Origin: Chitinophagaceae bacterium
GTDB lineage: Bacteria > Bacteroidota > Bacteroidia > Chitinophagales > Chitinophagaceae
Direction: 5' to 3'
Assembly (NCBI GenBank): GCA_947451935.1
Contig: CANGBH010000021.1
Coordinates: forward strand, 1 to 36,262
DNA: 36,262 nt
Of this stretch, positions 8,593 through 26,882 are shown piece after piece. The notes beneath the pieces were generated by a model. It worked only from the letters and a program-made list of their open reading frames with translations. It did no database searches and had not been told where the DNA came from. Every line of letters starts with the position of its first letter. Position 1 is the stretch's first letter. The translations under genes and the position numbers were made by a program.

Positions 8593-8610
8593 CCCTAGTT
8601 CTTTAATTTT

Positions 8611-8718
8611 CTTATCCAGAAAGGCAGAGGGAATTGGCCCGATGAAGCCTTGACAACCTGTTCCCCTAGCGGCTAATAAGGTGTCAAATCCAGCTCCGCC
8701 CTAATGGAGGTAGATAAG
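8611..8718 (+). promoter_or_regulatory. SAM-I (S-box) riboswitch
   Basis: S-adenosylmethionine-sensing leader of the metX-hom operon. P1 is CTTATC (8611-8616) with GATAAG (8713-8718). The P2/kink-turn core contains AGGCAGAGGGA and the invariant GGCCCGATGAAGCCTTGACAACC. P3 is TGACAACC with GGTGTCA, and P4 is CTCC with GGAG around 8694-8709. This arrangement is diagnostic of SAM-I. High SAM should stabilise P1 and allow the downstream terminator to form. Confidence 0.95.
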
Positions 8719-8762
8719 TCGGATCTCTTCGCTTGATATCATTCTAAAAATCACAGTGAACG

Positions 8763-8817: not shown

Positions 8818-9834
8818 ATGAAAAGTATTAGATCAACATATTATTTTAAAGGCGAATTTTCGCTTGAATCCGGTAGAAGTATCAGTGATTTCCACTTGGC
8901 CTATACCACACATGGCAACTTGTCCCCCAACAAAGACAAGGTGGTATGGATTTTTCAGGCCATGACAGCCAATAGTGATCCTGCAGAGTGGTGGCCAGGT
9001 ATGGTTGGAGAAGGTAAATTTTTCGACCCTAATCAATTTTATATCGTTTGTGTTAATACGCCAGGCAGTTGCTATGGAAGTAGCGGCCCGTTAGATATCA
9101 ATCCAGCTACCAATACCCCTTATTACAGAAACTTTCCTTTTTTCACACCTCTTGATATGGCTAAAGCCTACGATCTATTGAGGATTGAATTAGGCATTGA
9201 CGACATATTTTTAGGAATTGGCAGCTCCTTGGGTGGACAACAATTGCTAGCATGGGCAGGTATGTCTCCCAGCTTATTCAAACATATTGTACCGATTTCA
9301 ACTAATGCTTTTCAATCGCCTTGGGGAAAAGCATTCAACGCATCACAAAGATTATGTATTGAAGCAGACCCTACTTGGTATGAAGAAAAAGCAGATGGCG
9401 GAATGGAAGGTATGAAAGTGGCTCGTGCAGTAGCATTATTAAGCTATCGCAGCTACGAAACCTACGAAAAGACACAACAAGACCCTAAGGAGGCAGTTGA
9501 AAATTTTAGAAGCGATTCATATCAAAAATACCAGGGAGAAAAACTGAGTAAACGATTTAATGCATATAGTTACTATATGCTATCCAAATCATTAGACTCG
9601 CACCATATGGGCAGAGGGATTTTTGATGCAGAAGAATTGCTACGTAAAATAACCTCGAAATGCCTAATCATTGGCATTTCATCAGACCTATTATTTCCAG
9701 TGAGTGAGCAACGATTCATCGCCGCCCACATACCAGGAGCAAAACTAGAAATCATAGAGTCCATGTATGGCCACGATGGTTTTTTATTGGAAGATGAAAC
9801 GCTTACGACACTTTTAAAAAAATTTATAGCTTAA
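8818..9834 (+). CDS. metX: homoserine O-acyltransferase (MetX family)
   Basis: Alpha/beta-hydrolase-fold enzyme of 338 residues that acylates homoserine, normally with acetyl-CoA, to commit it to methionine synthesis. The nucleophile elbow is GSSLGG with Ser137. The catalytic Asp lies in ISSDLLFPVSEQ and the His in YGHDGFLLE near the C-terminus. Family segments LAYTTHGNLSPNKDKVVWIFQ and NTPGSCYGSSGP match the MetX substrate pocket. It lies directly behind the SAM-I riboswitch and attenuator and 12 bp before hom, so it should be switched off when SAM is plentiful. Whether it prefers acetyl- or succinyl-CoA cannot be decided here. Confidence 0.96.
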   Translation: MKSIRSTYYFKGEFSLESGRSISDFHLAYTTHGNLSPNKDKVVWIFQAMTANSDPAEWWPGMVGEGKFFDPNQFYIVCVNTPGSCYGSSGPLDINPATNTPYYRNFPFFTPLDMAKAYDLLRIELGIDDIFLGIGSSLGGQQLLAWAGMSPSLFKHIVPISTNAFQSPWGKAFNASQRLCIEADPTWYEEKADGGMEGMKVARAVALLSYRSYETYEKTQQDPKEAVENFRSDSYQKYQGEKLSKRFNAYSYYMLSKSLDSHHMGRGIFDAEELLRKITSKCLIIGISSDLLFPVSEQRFIAAHIPGAKLEIIESMYGHDGFLLEDETLTTLLKKFIA

Positions 9835-9846
9835 ACTATATTAACG

Positions 9847-11106
9847 ATGGGAGCAGAAAAAAAATTAGTCATTGGACTATTCGGATTCGGAGTTGTTGGG
9901 GAAGGTCTTTATAAAATCCTGAAACAAACTCCTTCGCTAAAAGCGAGCATCAAAAAAGTATGTATTAAGAATACTACAAAAAAGAGAAACGCACCACCCG
10001 AATTGTTTACATCAGATATGTACGACATTCTAAACGATCCAGAAATCAATGTGGTAGTTGAAGTAATCAATGACAGTGTTGTAGGCTTCGAAATTGTATC
10101 TAACGCATTAAAGAATGGCAAAGATGTTGTAAGTGCAAGCAAGAAAATGCTTTCTGAACACCTACCAGAATTAATTGACTTACAAAACTCAACTGGCAGA
10201 TCACTACTTTATGAAGCATCGTCATGTGCATCTATTCCAATCATCAGAAACTTAGAAGAGTATTACGATAACGATCTTCTTCATTCAATTAAAGCCATCG
10301 TGAACGGTTCTACCAATTTCATTTTGACTAAAATGTTTGAAGACCAATTGAATTTTAAAGAAGCATTGCTTCTTGCTCAACAACTTGGTTTTGCAGAATC
10401 TGATCCAAGGCTAGATATTGAAGGATTTGATGCCGTAAGCAAATGGATTTTACTTCTAACTCATAGCTATGGCATCAGCAGCACGATAGATGACTTACTG
10501 TTTAATGGCATAGCCCAGATCCACGAATTGGATGCGGGTGTAGCTCAAGCTAGAAATCAATCTATTAAACTTGTTGCCCAAGCAAAGAAATTACTAAATG
10601 GGAAAGTCGCTACATTCCTATTGCCCCAATTCATAGACCATAACGATCAATTGTATTTCGTAAAAAACGAATACAATGGTGTTGTAATAGAAAGTGGATT
10701 TTCCGACAAACAATTTTTCTATGGAAAAGGAGCAGGAAGCTTCCCTACTGCATCTGCGGTATTGAGTGATATTTCTGCGCTTCGATATAGCTATCGATAT
10801 GAGTACAAGAAAAAAAATCAACAAACACCAGCAGAATTAAGCTCCGACTTTCACCTCAGAATTTACATCAGCTTTAAGTCGCTTGCTGATATTCCAAAAG
10901 AAGAATTCTCAAGCGTGGAAGAATGGCACTCTGGAAATGAACGCAGTTACCTGATTGGAACAATGCCATTCACTTCATTACTGCACAAAGACTGGTGGAA
11001 GAAAAATGGAACATCATTAATTTTAATGCCCGATCCAATAATAGAAGACATGGATATCAAAGAACTAAAAAAGATGAGCTTATCATTAGCTGGACTTGAA
11101 ATCTAA
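9847..11106 (+). CDS. hom: homoserine dehydrogenase
   Basis: NAD(P)-dependent enzyme of 419 residues that reduces aspartate semialdehyde to homoserine, the shared precursor of methionine and threonine. The N-terminal Rossmann fold shows GFGVVG at residues 13-18. The catalytic domain has NGSTNFILTKM and the family hallmark GFAESDPRLDIEGFDAVSKW, which includes the catalytic Lys/Asp region. The C-terminal 80 residues form an ACT-like regulatory end (FHLRIYISFKSLAD...), as in Bacteroidota homologues. It is the second gene of the riboswitch operon, so both supply and acylation of homoserine respond to SAM. No sulfhydrylase gene (metY/metB) follows. Confidence 0.96.
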   Translation: MGAEKKLVIGLFGFGVVGEGLYKILKQTPSLKASIKKVCIKNTTKKRNAPPELFTSDMYDILNDPEINVVVEVINDSVVGFEIVSNALKNGKDVVSASKKMLSEHLPELIDLQNSTGRSLLYEASSCASIPIIRNLEEYYDNDLLHSIKAIVNGSTNFILTKMFEDQLNFKEALLLAQQLGFAESDPRLDIEGFDAVSKWILLLTHSYGISSTIDDLLFNGIAQIHELDAGVAQARNQSIKLVAQAKKLLNGKVATFLLPQFIDHNDQLYFVKNEYNGVVIESGFSDKQFFYGKGAGSFPTASAVLSDISALRYSYRYEYKKKNQQTPAELSSDFHLRIYISFKSLADIPKEEFSSVEEWHSGNERSYLIGTMPFTSLLHKDWWKKNGTSLILMPDPIIEDMDIKELKKMSLSLAGLEI

Positions 11107-24540: not shown

Positions 24541-24674
24541 CTTGCTTAATTAGGTTGTATGTACACTAGAAACAATATATGACAAAGAGGTGATTTTATA
24601 GTAATAACCAAAGGTGAATAGGGTAAGCCGAAACAATTAAAGTGCATCAACAACTCTGATTGATTTCATAAAAA

Positions 24675-24700
24675 AAGAGCACCAATTTCTTGATGCTCTT
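24675..24700 (-). terminator. terminator of the tRNA operon
   Basis: On the minus strand AAGAGCATCAA (24700-24690) pairs with TTGGTGCTCTT (24685-24675) over GAAA, with one G-U pair, and runs into a T-tract (24676-24671). It lies directly behind tRNA-Pro. Confidence 0.9.
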
Positions 24701-24703
24701 GTG

Positions 24704-24777
24704 TCGGGAAGACAGGATTCGAACCTGCGACCCCCTGGTCCCAAACCAGGTGCGCTACCGGCCTGCGCTACTTCCCG
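24704..24777 (-). tRNA. tRNA-Pro (UGG)
   Basis: Complete cloverleaf of 74 nt. Acceptor CGGGAAG (24777-24771) pairs with CTTCCCG (24711-24705), discriminator A. The D-stem is GCGC/GCGC with GG in the loop. The anticodon arm is CCTGG-TTTGGGA-CCAGG, giving anticodon TGG. The T-arm is GCAGG-TTCGAAT-CCTGT with one G-U pair. CCA is not encoded (the next bases read CAC). It is the last gene of the operon, immediately downstream of the five pseudo-tRNA units, whose 5' portion matches it. Confidence 0.97.
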
Positions 24778-25244
24778 AACTGTATTTTACCTAACCGAAT
24801 TGAACGATTCGCATTCCTGCGACCCTCCCGACTCCTAGTCGGGATGCGGCATCTTCATGCGCTACTTCCCGAACTGTATTTTACCTAACCGAATCGAACG
24901 ATTCGCATTCCTGCGACCCTCCCGACTCCTAGTCGGGATGCGGCATCTTCATGCGCTACTTCCCGAACTTTATTTTTCCTAACTGAATCGAACGATTCGC
25001 ATTCCTGCGACCCTCCCGACCCTAGTCGGGATGCGCCATCTTCATGCGCTACTTCCCGAACTTTATTTTTCCTAACTGAATCGAACGATTCGCATTCCTG
25101 CGACTCTCCCGACCCTAGTCGGGATGCGCCATCTTCATGCGCTACTTCCCGAACTTTATTTTTCCTAACTGAATCGAACGATTCGCATTCCTGCGACCCT
25201 CCCGACCCTAGTCGGGATGCGCCATCTTCATGCGCTACTTCCCG
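24778..25244 (-). repeat. five tandem tRNA-Pro-derived units (pseudo-tRNA array)
   Basis: In transcript order the units are 25152-25244, 25059-25151, 24966-25058 (93 bp each), 24872-24965 and 24778-24871 (94 bp each), directly abutting. The first and third are identical, the second has one substitution, and the last two differ from each other by one base; the two groups differ by four substitutions and one indel. Each begins with the same 14 bases as tRNA-Pro (5' acceptor strand, U8/A9, 5' D-stem) and later shares GGGTCGCAGG. The anticodon arm is replaced by a 7-8 bp hairpin (TCCCGAC...GTCGGGA) with AGG at the tip. A T-loop-like GTTCGATTC (GTTCAATTC in the last unit) follows, then an AT-rich spacer. 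None has a 3' acceptor strand, so none can be a normal tRNA. The array lies between tRNA-Ser and tRNA-Pro on the same strand, inside one promoter-terminator unit. Confidence 0.93.
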
Positions 25245-25270
25245 AACTTTCCTTACAGTTTTGCTTTGTG

Positions 25271-25359
25271 CGGTGAGGGCGGGATTCGAACCCGCGGTAC
25301 AGAGTTACCCGTACGGCAGTTTAGCAAACTACTGATTTCAGCCACTCATCCACCTCACC
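25271..25359 (-). tRNA. tRNA-Ser (GCU)
   Basis: Class II tRNA of 89 nt. Acceptor GGTGAGG (25359-25353) pairs with CCTCACC (25278-25272), discriminator G. The anticodon arm is GTAGT-TTGCTAA-ACTGC, anticodon GCT. A long variable arm typical of serine tRNAs follows, and the T-arm is GCGGG-TTCGAAT-CCCGC. CCA is not encoded. It is the first gene of the operon, about 20 nt after the predicted transcription start. Confidence 0.96.
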
Positions 25360-25448: not shown

Positions 25449-26882
25449 TTACATCGCAGCCAACTGCACTTTCTGCTGCAATTCCATAACACTTTCCCTG
25501 AACAAATTATCAGTATCCATCAAATCCTTGACAGTCTGACAAGAATGTATAACCGTAGTGTGATCTCTTCCACCAAAATGTTCTCCAATGGTCTTAAGAG
25601 AGTTTTTAGTGAAGATTTTAGAAAGATACATAGTGATTTGACGGGCTTGCACAATCTCACGCTTCCTGGTTTTCTGCAACAACCTGTCATAAGGCAAATC
25701 AAAAAACTCACATACCATTTTTTGAATGGTATCAATCGTAATTTCTTTAGAAGATGTTTTGATGAAATTCCTCAACACCTTCTTCGCCAAATCAAGATCA
25801 ATCTCACGCTTATTGAGAGAAGATTGTGCCAATAATGAAATCAACGCCCCCTCAAGCTCACGCACATTATTTTGAATGTTATACGCAATGTATTTAACTA
25901 CATCTTTAGGAAGATCAAGACCGTTATTCTTCATCTTCTTCTCAAGAATCTCTATTCGAGTTTCATAATCAGGAACCTGAAGATCAGCACTCAATCCCCA
26001 TCTGAATCGACTAAGCAAACGCTCCTGCAAGCCTTCCAAATCTTTTGGTGGCTTATCTGAACTTAATATTAATTGCTTACCAGATTGATGTAGATGATTA
26101 AATATAGCAAAGAATGCATCCTGCGTTTTTTCAGCCCTATTGAAAAACTGAACATCATCAAGAATCAATACATCAATCAATTGATAGAAATGTATAAAAT
26201 CATTGATGGCATTATTCCTGCTATGATCCTGGAACTGATTAATGAATTTTTCTGAACTCACATATAAGACCACCTTATTCGGATGTAATCGCTTCACCTC
26301 ATTCCCAATCGCTTGAGCAAGATGTGACTTACCCAATCCAACTCCGCCATAAACCACTAACGGATTAAATGATGTAGCACCAGGCTTTTCAGCAACTGTT
26401 TTACCCGCACGACGAGCAACCCTATTGCAATCACCCTCAACAAATGCCTCAAATGTATAAATCGGATTCAATTGCGAATCGATTTGCATCTTCTTAAGTC
26501 CAGGTATCACAAACGGATTCTTTACTTGGTTGCTTATAACCAATGGGAAATCCATTTCATTATTTGAAAATGTTTTGAACGACTGACCACTAACATCCAT
26601 AGTGAGTGGCTTGTTCTTCCCATTTCCACTATCCACCATGATTCTGTATTCAAGCCTTGCTTCTTTACCTAATTCGCGCTTTAATGTTTTGGAAAGAAGA
26701 TTGATGTAATGCTCTTCAATGTATTCGTAAAAAAACTGACTCGGCACTTGAATGGTAAGCACGTTATCTTTTATAGCAACTGGCTGAATCGGCTCGAACC
26801 AAGTTTTAAAGTGTTGCCACTCTACAATGTCTTTGATGATAGACAAACAATTGCTCCAAACTTTTTCAAATGCTCTCTCCAT
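25449..26882 (-). CDS. dnaA: chromosomal replication initiator DnaA
   Basis: AAA+ initiator of 477 residues that binds DnaA boxes and opens the origin. Domain I covers about residues 1-85 (FEKVWSNCLSIIKDIVEWQHFKTWFEPI), followed by a short linker. The AAA+ domain has Walker A GGVGLGKSH (179-187), Walker B LILDDVQFF (239 on), and a sensor/arginine-finger region with LQERLLSRFRWGL. The C-terminal DNA-binding domain ends with the DnaA signature GGRDHTTVIHSCQTV from residue 437. Start and length are normal. The gene is divergent from the DUF3127 gene across 544 bp. I see no cluster of DnaA boxes next to it, so the origin need not be here. Confidence 0.98.
   Translation of the reverse strand: MERAFEKVWSNCLSIIKDIVEWQHFKTWFEPIQPVAIKDNVLTIQVPSQFFYEYIEEHYINLLSKTLKRELGKEARLEYRIMVDSGNGKNKPLTMDVSGQSFKTFSNNEMDFPLVISNQVKNPFVIPGLKKMQIDSQLNPIYTFEAFVEGDCNRVARRAGKTVAEKPGATSFNPLVVYGGVGLGKSHLAQAIGNEVKRLHPNKVVLYVSSEKFINQFQDHSRNNAINDFIHFYQLIDVLILDDVQFFNRAEKTQDAFFAIFNHLHQSGKQLILSSDKPPKDLEGLQERLLSRFRWGLSADLQVPDYETRIEILEKKMKNNGLDLPKDVVKYIAYNIQNNVRELEGALISLLAQSSLNKREIDLDLAKKVLRNFIKTSSKEITIDTIQKMVCEFFDLPYDRLLQKTRKREIVQARQITMYLSKIFTKNSLKTIGEHFGGRDHTTVIHSCQTVKDLMDTDNLFRESVMELQQKVQLAAM

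Follow-up and report, generated by a model that had tools for sequence, protein, structure and literature searches.

Five tandem tRNA-Pro front halves in a Chitinophagaceae genome, a probable footprint of tRNA-invading GIY-YIG elements

What has placed five incomplete copies of a tRNA-Pro gene, each abutting the next, between an intact tRNA-Ser gene and an intact tRNA-Pro gene in a Chitinophagaceae bacterium? Transfer RNA genes are the usual sites of integrase-type islands, which duplicate tRNA 3' ends, and group I introns with GIY-YIG homing endonucleases insert in tRNA anticodon loops. In the tyrT operon of E. coli, the rtT repeats are arranged in tandem, lie downstream and carry the 3' end of the neighbouring tRNA. 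REP palindromes are short sequences linked to a small DNA-cutting enzyme, the RAYT (Y1) transposase. The array considered here lies in a contig of 36,262 nt (the window, analysed at its full length), and it was compared with the rest of its genome and with other genomes. We propose that it is probably the nuclease-less footprint of a Bacteroidota family of tRNA-invading GIY-YIG elements, multiplied by recombination.

A single tandem array was found in the whole window (24764-25250, period 93, 5.2 copies, 97% matches by TRF). As the first-pass annotation of this DNA had described, it consists of five abutting pseudo-tRNA-Pro units of 93, 93, 93, 94 and 94 bp, all on the minus strand, in the gap between tRNA-Ser(GCT) and tRNA-Pro(TGG) (Table 1). 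The exact copy number of five comes from one draft assembly of 186 contigs. All five units open with nt 1-14 of tRNA-Pro, also as described, and the reported lack of the acceptor 3' strand was borne out when the units were read against tRNA-Pro. The annotation had placed the likeness to tRNA-Pro in the 5' part; this is correct as far as it goes, but the likeness extends to about nt 55, and where tRNA-Pro has its anticodon arm the units have a palindrome of 18-19 nt (TCCCGACT..GTCGGGA). The order within a unit is the acceptor 5' strand, a partly diverged D region, GCGCA (CCGCA in units 4 and 5), the palindrome (as TCCCGACTAGGAGTCGGGA or TCCCGACTAGGGTCGGGA, in 5/5 units), GGGTCGCAGG up to the T loop, and a leader-like spacer that ends as the tRNA leader does; the units are cut off in the T arm. 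The segment GGGTCGCAGG, thought to be common to all, is present in four units, but unit 2 carries GAGTCGCAGG in its place. Likewise, the units are highly alike as claimed, but pairwise identity is 92.6-100% (mean 96%), not 95-100%. The leader between tRNA-Ser and unit 1 ends in TGTAAGGAAAGTT, which resembles the spacer end inside units 1-3, TTAGGAAAAATAAAGTT, as read from the sequence. The units are not scored as tRNAs, because ARAGORN and Rfam (at the gathering score) find only the two intact tRNA genes, tRNA-Pro and tRNA-Ser, in this stretch.

Table 1. Positions in the window of the five units and the features next to them, in transcript order
Feature	Position	Strand	Basis or remark
tRNA-Ser(GCT), intact, upstream in transcript direction	25270..25359	-	ARAGORN; Rfam RF00005, 54.5 bits
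25-nt leader, tRNA-Ser to unit 1	25245..25269	-	sequence read
Unit 1, pseudo-tRNA-Pro 5' part, 93 bp	25152..25244	-	palindrome 25200-25217 replaces anticodon arm
Unit 2, pseudo-tRNA-Pro 5' part, 93 bp	25059..25151	-	palindrome 25107-25124
Unit 3, pseudo-tRNA-Pro 5' part, 93 bp	24966..25058	-	palindrome 25014-25031; identical to unit 1
Unit 4, pseudo-tRNA-Pro 5' part, 94 bp	24872..24965	-	palindrome 24920-24938
Unit 5, pseudo-tRNA-Pro 5' part, 94 bp	24778..24871	-	palindrome 24826-24844; abuts tRNA-Pro
tRNA-Pro(TGG), intact	24703..24777	-	ARAGORN; Rfam, 66.3 bits
Hairpin plus T run AAGAGCATCAAGAAATTGGTGCTCTTTTTTT, probable terminator after tRNA-Pro	24670..24700	-	sequence read

The exact pattern TCCCGACTN0-8GTCGGGA has no copy outside the array in this 2.56 Mb genome, and the palindrome was therefore rejected as a dispersed repeat of the genome. 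Across the order, 24 of 248 genomes contain a close pattern, which is dispersed in a few of them (43 copies in G266, 9 in G197). A strict pattern of D arm plus TCCCG palindrome, which can match only some types of tRNA and a single type of palindrome and is a weak gauge of prevalence, was found across the phylum at four sites in 3 of 395 genomes, all four near an intact tRNA-Asn; this count gives no support for high prevalence. Among plasmids, 215 records match the tRNA-Ser-to-tRNA-Pro stretch, none of them over 80% of it, and the 20 matches listed of these 215 cover tRNA parts only.

The hairpin plus T run after tRNA-Pro is near-identical in genomes G017 and G016, and upstream of tRNA-Ser and the array lies an ORF (25449-26882) which we take to be dnaA. 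No GIY-YIG gene (PF01541) was found on the contig of the array (C21), no integrase was recognised when the window ORFs were read by eye, and tRNA-Pro(TGG) has neither 3' repeats nor a displaced 3' half, the matches of at least 12 nt within 1.5 kb being all 5' pieces. Elsewhere in the window there is a SAM riboswitch (8609-8720, 77.5 bits) upstream of two ORFs (8818-9834 and 9847-11106) that are presumably methionine-pathway genes. An Rfam match to Plastid-psbl-rps4 (25271-25324, plus strand, 47 bits, below the gathering score) probably reflects tRNA-Ser, because it overlies the 3' part of that gene on the opposite strand. The other Rfam families matched in the stretch of the array were discarded, since besides tRNA there are only sub-gathering matches, e.g. 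PrrB_RsmZ and YrlA.

What the first-pass annotation overlooked is the palindrome in the anticodon arm and the presence of displaced tRNA halves at many tRNA genes, often with a GIY-YIG gene. In the window's own genome, 9 of the 28 tRNA genes, i.e. Pro(TGG), Pro(GGG), Ala, Phe, Leu(CAA), Lys and three Arg, have fragments of themselves (at least 12 nt) within 1.5 kb, all on the same strand and none on the opposite one. Judged by eye, a palindrome stands at the break in five of the nine (Pro(TGG), Ala, Arg(CCG), Phe and Leu(CAA)), in the anticodon arm, D loop or T loop, and the remaining four have no full palindrome (in Arg(CCT) it is partial only); the displaced tRNA-Phe and tRNA-Leu halves are interrupted exactly in the T loop. 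Of the four GIY-YIG matches in this genome, three are small and the fourth lies in a 599-aa frame that we take to be UvrC. Two of the small genes follow tRNA-Ala and tRNA-Arg(CCG) at distances of 52 and 106 bp, respectively; these are the only tRNA genes besides Pro(TGG) with an upstream 5' piece. The third small gene, a broken copy, follows tRNA-Lys at 1.3 kb and comes directly after a displaced 3' end of that tRNA. Between tRNA-Lys and that 3' end (G000:C9; L057/L110) there is also a 267-aa ORF, presumably encoding a protein of the endonuclease/exonuclease/phosphatase family. A low-scoring tRNA-Cys with anticodon ACA (38.9 bits) was noted at G000:C8:31292-31362 (L083).

To place these genes in a wider setting, GIY-YIG matches listed from 59 genomes were fetched with their flanks. 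Those whose open frame does not exceed 250 aa make up 88 small loci among the matches listed (L111-L220); three short matches listed (G061:C100, G082:C7 and G056:C17:21888) were left out. Among the matches listed, 47 of the 88 small loci have a tRNA gene within 500 bp, on the same strand in 47/47, and the nuclease gene lies downstream of it at 35 and upstream at 12; UvrC-size GIY-YIG controls (L133 and L201-L219, picked by an open-frame length of about 600 aa) have a tRNA gene within about 1.5 kb in 0/20. The other 41 small loci among the matches listed have no tRNA gene within 500 bp, and 29 of these belong to a separate clade. Displaced same-strand fragments are present at 41 of the 47 tRNA-adjacent loci (again among the matches listed), with one opposite-strand fragment in all. 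Fragments were scored where 12 or 14 nt matched exactly; one locus can contribute several, so that their counts are not independent events, and three places in L123 are counted twice. With this reading, the 52 upstream pieces include 43 5' pieces and 2 3' pieces, and the 53 downstream pieces include 36 3' pieces and 4 5' pieces. A palindrome with an arm of at least 6 stands at the break in 32/43 upstream 5' pieces and 21/36 downstream 3' pieces, compared to about 7% of random positions in the same loci; 26 of the 79 displaced halves lack a palindrome of this size.

In complete examples the parts follow one another on one strand: a displaced 5' tRNA half with a palindrome (often in the anticodon arm), a spacer, an intact tRNA of the same isotype, a terminator, a small GIY-YIG gene (open frames of about 75-160 aa), and a displaced 3' half with a palindrome and a terminator of its own. 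The 5' half may be repeated. At least two 5' pieces lie upstream of the intact tRNA in L123, L129, L154, L169, L170, L173, L179 and L183, of which L129, L154, L169 and L179 were identified as tandem ladders by direct reading and the other four by count alone (in L170, neither of the two 5' pieces has a palindrome). L154 carries four tandem 5' tRNA-Asn units with TCCCGTACCTACGGGA, followed by intact tRNA-Asn, terminator, GIY-YIG gene and 3' half with palindrome, and L179 is built in the same way with three 5' tRNA-Ser units. L169 has two 5' tRNA-Pro units and two GIY-YIG genes, with no 3' half found, and L129 has about eight 90-bp 5' tRNA-Asn units, two GIY-YIG genes and a 3' half without a clear palindrome. 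The ladder units measure 50-139 bp. At Pro loci in other families, G033 (L031/L032) and G059 (L112, an end-to-end pseudo-copy), the palindrome sits at the same position in the anticodon arm as in the array.

The nuclease lineages cluster by tRNA isotype. In a quick tree of 100 small GIY-YIG domains (79 columns, many unresolved forks), a supported branch has 29 rows without tRNA on one side and, on the other, all 59 rows with a tRNA gene (within 700 bp), 11 without and one unclear. Among rows of clear isotype (58 rows, 13 isotypes), isotype changes on the tree number 21, against a mean of 41.9 and a minimum of 37 in 300 shuffles; when each genome is allowed a single row per isotype (47 rows), there are 21 changes against 34.6, minimum 31. 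When a profile of three Asn-lineage proteins was run against named genomes, 65 loci were obtained, three of which coincide with records in the earlier unnamed set. Among the 62 new loci, 48 have a tRNA gene within 500 bp, on the same strand in 48/48 (33 Asn, 11 Ala, 2 Ser, 1 Tyr and 1 Arg), and 40 of these 48 have displaced fragments, none on the opposite strand. Taken together, 51 of the 65 named loci have a tRNA gene (51/51 same strand, 35 Asn, 11 Ala); in 10 of the 14 without a near tRNA, the match is at most 500 bp from an end of the available stretch. The record titles of 63 of the 65 name Bacteroidota or a group within that phylum, the other two giving only uncultured bacterium, and the chromosome of Flavobacterium sp. 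LPB0248 shows the full anatomy at tRNA-Ala. A phage source of the Asn-lineage protein was sought and rejected, as there was no match at E 1e-5 among 50,697 phage records. The second clade of the tree (29 rows; L114, L125, L134, L136, L137, L163 and others) comprises small GIY-YIG genes away from tRNAs. Direct repeats of at least 20 nt, some of them intergenic (e.g. GTCATTGCGAGG..), flank 13/29 of its loci, as they do 45/60 tRNA-clade loci and 0/19 UvrC-sized controls; this clade may be a REP-like partner system.

Homologous units occur in related genomes. The genus is represented by 41 genomes. Four carry an array, in 11 tRNA-Ser and tRNA-Pro are separated by a plain 12-30 nt, 4 have a contig end at tRNA-Ser (G002, G004, G018 and G014, at or within 56 nt), 6 have tRNA-Ser without a nearby same-strand tRNA-Pro and 2 have tRNA-Pro only, 14 being left out. 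The same array is present in G281 (at least four units, broken by the contig end) and G283 (three units). These orthologous arrays in two other assemblies, together with the fact that only units 1 and 3 of the five are identical, answer the concern raised with the first description that the array might be an assembly artefact. In the same gap of G284 there is an array of different design, with four 50-bp units and TCCCGCAGTTGCGGGA in the D arm. Because of this difference, ladders in the tRNA-Ser/tRNA-Pro gap would, by design, have arisen at least twice in one genus. On contig 112 of G284 (L224, about 240-340) lies an end-to-end tRNA-Pro-like stretch that ARAGORN does not call; both its anticodon arm and its T arm hold a palindrome, and it has a terminator-like hairpin. 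In five further genomes of the genus, small GIY loci adjoin a same-strand tRNA gene in 11 of the 13 fetched (of 15 found).

Could the ladder be a plain tandem duplication, i.e. an extra tRNA-Pro copy that decayed, losing its anticodon arm and 3' end, and whose leader-plus-5' half was expanded by slippage or unequal crossing-over, the nuclease family being unrelated? A decayed tRNA copy duplicated without any nuclease would yield a similar ladder, and the contig does carry no GIY-YIG gene. The first-pass annotation had offered an expanded tandem duplication, and in this it agrees with the comparison: copy number differs between three species (5, at least 4 and 3 units), and units are more alike within genomes (mean identity 0.96, 0.97 and 0.94) than between them (0.88-0.94), as expected from turnover by recombination. 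However, duplication by itself leaves unexplained the GC-rich palindrome at the same position as in the nuclease-bearing Pro loci of other families, the array of another design in the same gap of G284, and the displaced fragments at the other tRNA genes among the 9/28 of the same genome. We regard it as unlikely in this plain form.

The annotation had also suggested a structured RNA that takes part in processing tRNA or in controlling translation, and this found no support. A functional tRNA-derived RNA, acting as a decoy or regulator (e.g. by titrating RNase P or a tRNA-modifying enzyme, or by shielding tRNA from a nuclease), would fit the folding of single units, which is better than that of shuffled sequence (z -1.7 to -5.0), and the slightly lower variation of tRNA-derived columns (9/56 vs 13/38 spacer columns, p = 0.05); the hairpin at the anticodon position is paired in 50/50 cells, but without any variation. 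Against it, none of 30 predicted pairs shows double-sided change (a weak test with few, close sequences, ten distinct units from three genomes), at least two of the ten units fold differently, the 11 plain-gap genomes of the genus have 12-30 nt in place of any array, and no Rfam family but tRNA reaches the gathering score in the stretch of the array, tRNA doing so at the two intact genes alone. A function of this kind is thus quite improbable. Attachment-site remains of integrase-type islands using tRNA genes are barely credible, for although an integrase-like gene lies downstream of tRNA-Pro in G284 (judged by reading the DNA), here it is the 5' half that is repeated, in units of 50-139 bp with an internal palindrome, and no integrase was recognised among the window ORFs by eye.

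The reading of the array as a footprint of a tRNA-invading GIY-YIG element draws on a phage precedent. SegB, a free-standing GIY-YIG homing endonuclease found in tRNA gene clusters of T-even phages (PMC13096335; PMC2988022), is the closest known system and shares the small GIY-YIG gene beside tRNA genes. According to PMC13096335, SegB of phage T6 cuts inside tRNA genes, and RAWTSGAAC is the motif at 23 of the 83 sites mapped. The same paper reports that a tRNA segment is amplified in tandem only if both the nuclease activity of SegB and phage recombination genes are present. In our own reading, the SegB motif resembles the reverse complement of the T loop. SegB is phage-borne, and split tRNA halves or palindromes are not mentioned in the passages of PMC13096335 consulted, whereas the family described here is chromosomal in Bacteroidota, clusters by isotype and has displaced halves; the array locus itself differs from a SegB-type locus in having no GIY-YIG gene within 1 kb of tRNA-Pro.

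The anatomy, the strand bias, the isotype-clustered nuclease lineages and the repeated 5' or 3' ladders were observed directly, and the following steps could account for them. The GIY-YIG nuclease would cut the tRNA gene, by analogy with SegB in phage, and recombination between repeated tRNA halves would rebuild an intact tRNA and multiply the displaced halves. Selection would keep one intact tRNA, and the displaced halves, being non-essential, would lose arms to palindromes, which may be scars at the cuts or the element's own ends. The window would then have kept the 5' side alone, as five tRNA-Pro front halves without nuclease gene or 3' half. No host function would be needed to account for such a ladder, which is probably transcribed together with tRNA-Ser and tRNA-Pro and then trimmed away. 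The link of this particular array to the element family is suggested by anatomy only, because there is no GIY-YIG gene on the contig and no 3' tRNA-Pro(TGG) half in the flanks searched.

Three other systems share a part of this anatomy. Like rtT, the array is a tandem repeat carrying a piece of a neighbouring tRNA within its operon, but it repeats the 5' half, lies upstream and has a palindrome. The contrast with rtT drawn in the first description was apt, and the difference it pointed to is one side of a two-sided pattern. rtT itself is absent from the Rfam matches in the stretch of the array, and rtT-like 3' ladders lie downstream of tRNA-Ser and tRNA-Pro in G020 and G010. The G020 locus (L018, 1572-2355), of rtT-like layout, has at least 7.7 copies of a 101-bp unit downstream of tRNA-Ser; each unit has the 3' end of tRNA-Ser, a CCGCCGCGGCGG palindrome and a T-run hairpin, so that the copies form a 3' ladder. 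REP/RAYT systems likewise tie short palindromes to a small DNA-cutting enzyme, but the enzyme here is GIY-YIG and not a Y1 transposase, and the palindromes vary in sequence and sit inside tRNA arms. Group I introns combine a GIY-YIG enzyme with insertion in the anticodon region of tRNA, but at the present locus no intron was recognised, the split tRNA goes uncalled in tRNA prediction, and an intact gene lies next to it.

The intact tRNA was also compared for signs of recoding. Within the genus, the sequence of tRNA-Pro(TGG) is shared by 3 genomes with an array and 7 without; in an eighth array-free genome, G280, the call is the same but extends two bases further on its 3' side. This comparison covers these 11 genomes, array-free G022, G013 and G024, with a different tRNA-Pro, being left out. 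In tRNA-Asn, no column has a different majority base between rows with the nuclease (41) and rows without it (28). Seven of 43 tRNA-Asn genes near a nuclease gene have an anticodon arm unseen among 32 without one nearby, the latter having been chosen by likeness to one query and including 12 with displaced fragments. A recoded "rescue" tRNA, as in strict cleave-and-rescue, was thus not found for tRNA-Pro or tRNA-Asn, bar these 7/43 anticodon arms. As these comparisons show no recoding of the intact tRNA, the invasion steps proposed above do not explain how it escapes cutting.

The enzyme family and its link to tRNA genes in phages are already known; the split tRNA, the arm-replacing palindromes and the isotype-clustered chromosomal lineages are new. 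We found no description of this element family in a literature search that fell short of most subscription papers, so that one may have been published. With somewhat less than even confidence, we extend the proposal to selfish elements living on tRNA genes throughout the phylum, in which an isotype-bound nuclease would split the gene at an arm and persist by keeping or bringing an essential intact copy, the ladder in the window being what remains after nuclease loss. If this is true, the elements would be natural chromosomal relatives of replace-and-rescue gene drives, minus the recoding of the rescue copy in designed drives, and would account for a class of repeats at tRNA genes that may break short-read assemblies there. 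Repeats resembling tRNA near tRNA genes may be element scars, not regulatory RNAs. Cultured bacteria (Flavobacterium, Chryseobacterium and Pedobacter) would hold a chromosomal counterpart of phage SegB, and how an element repeatedly invades essential tRNA genes without killing the cell would become directly testable.
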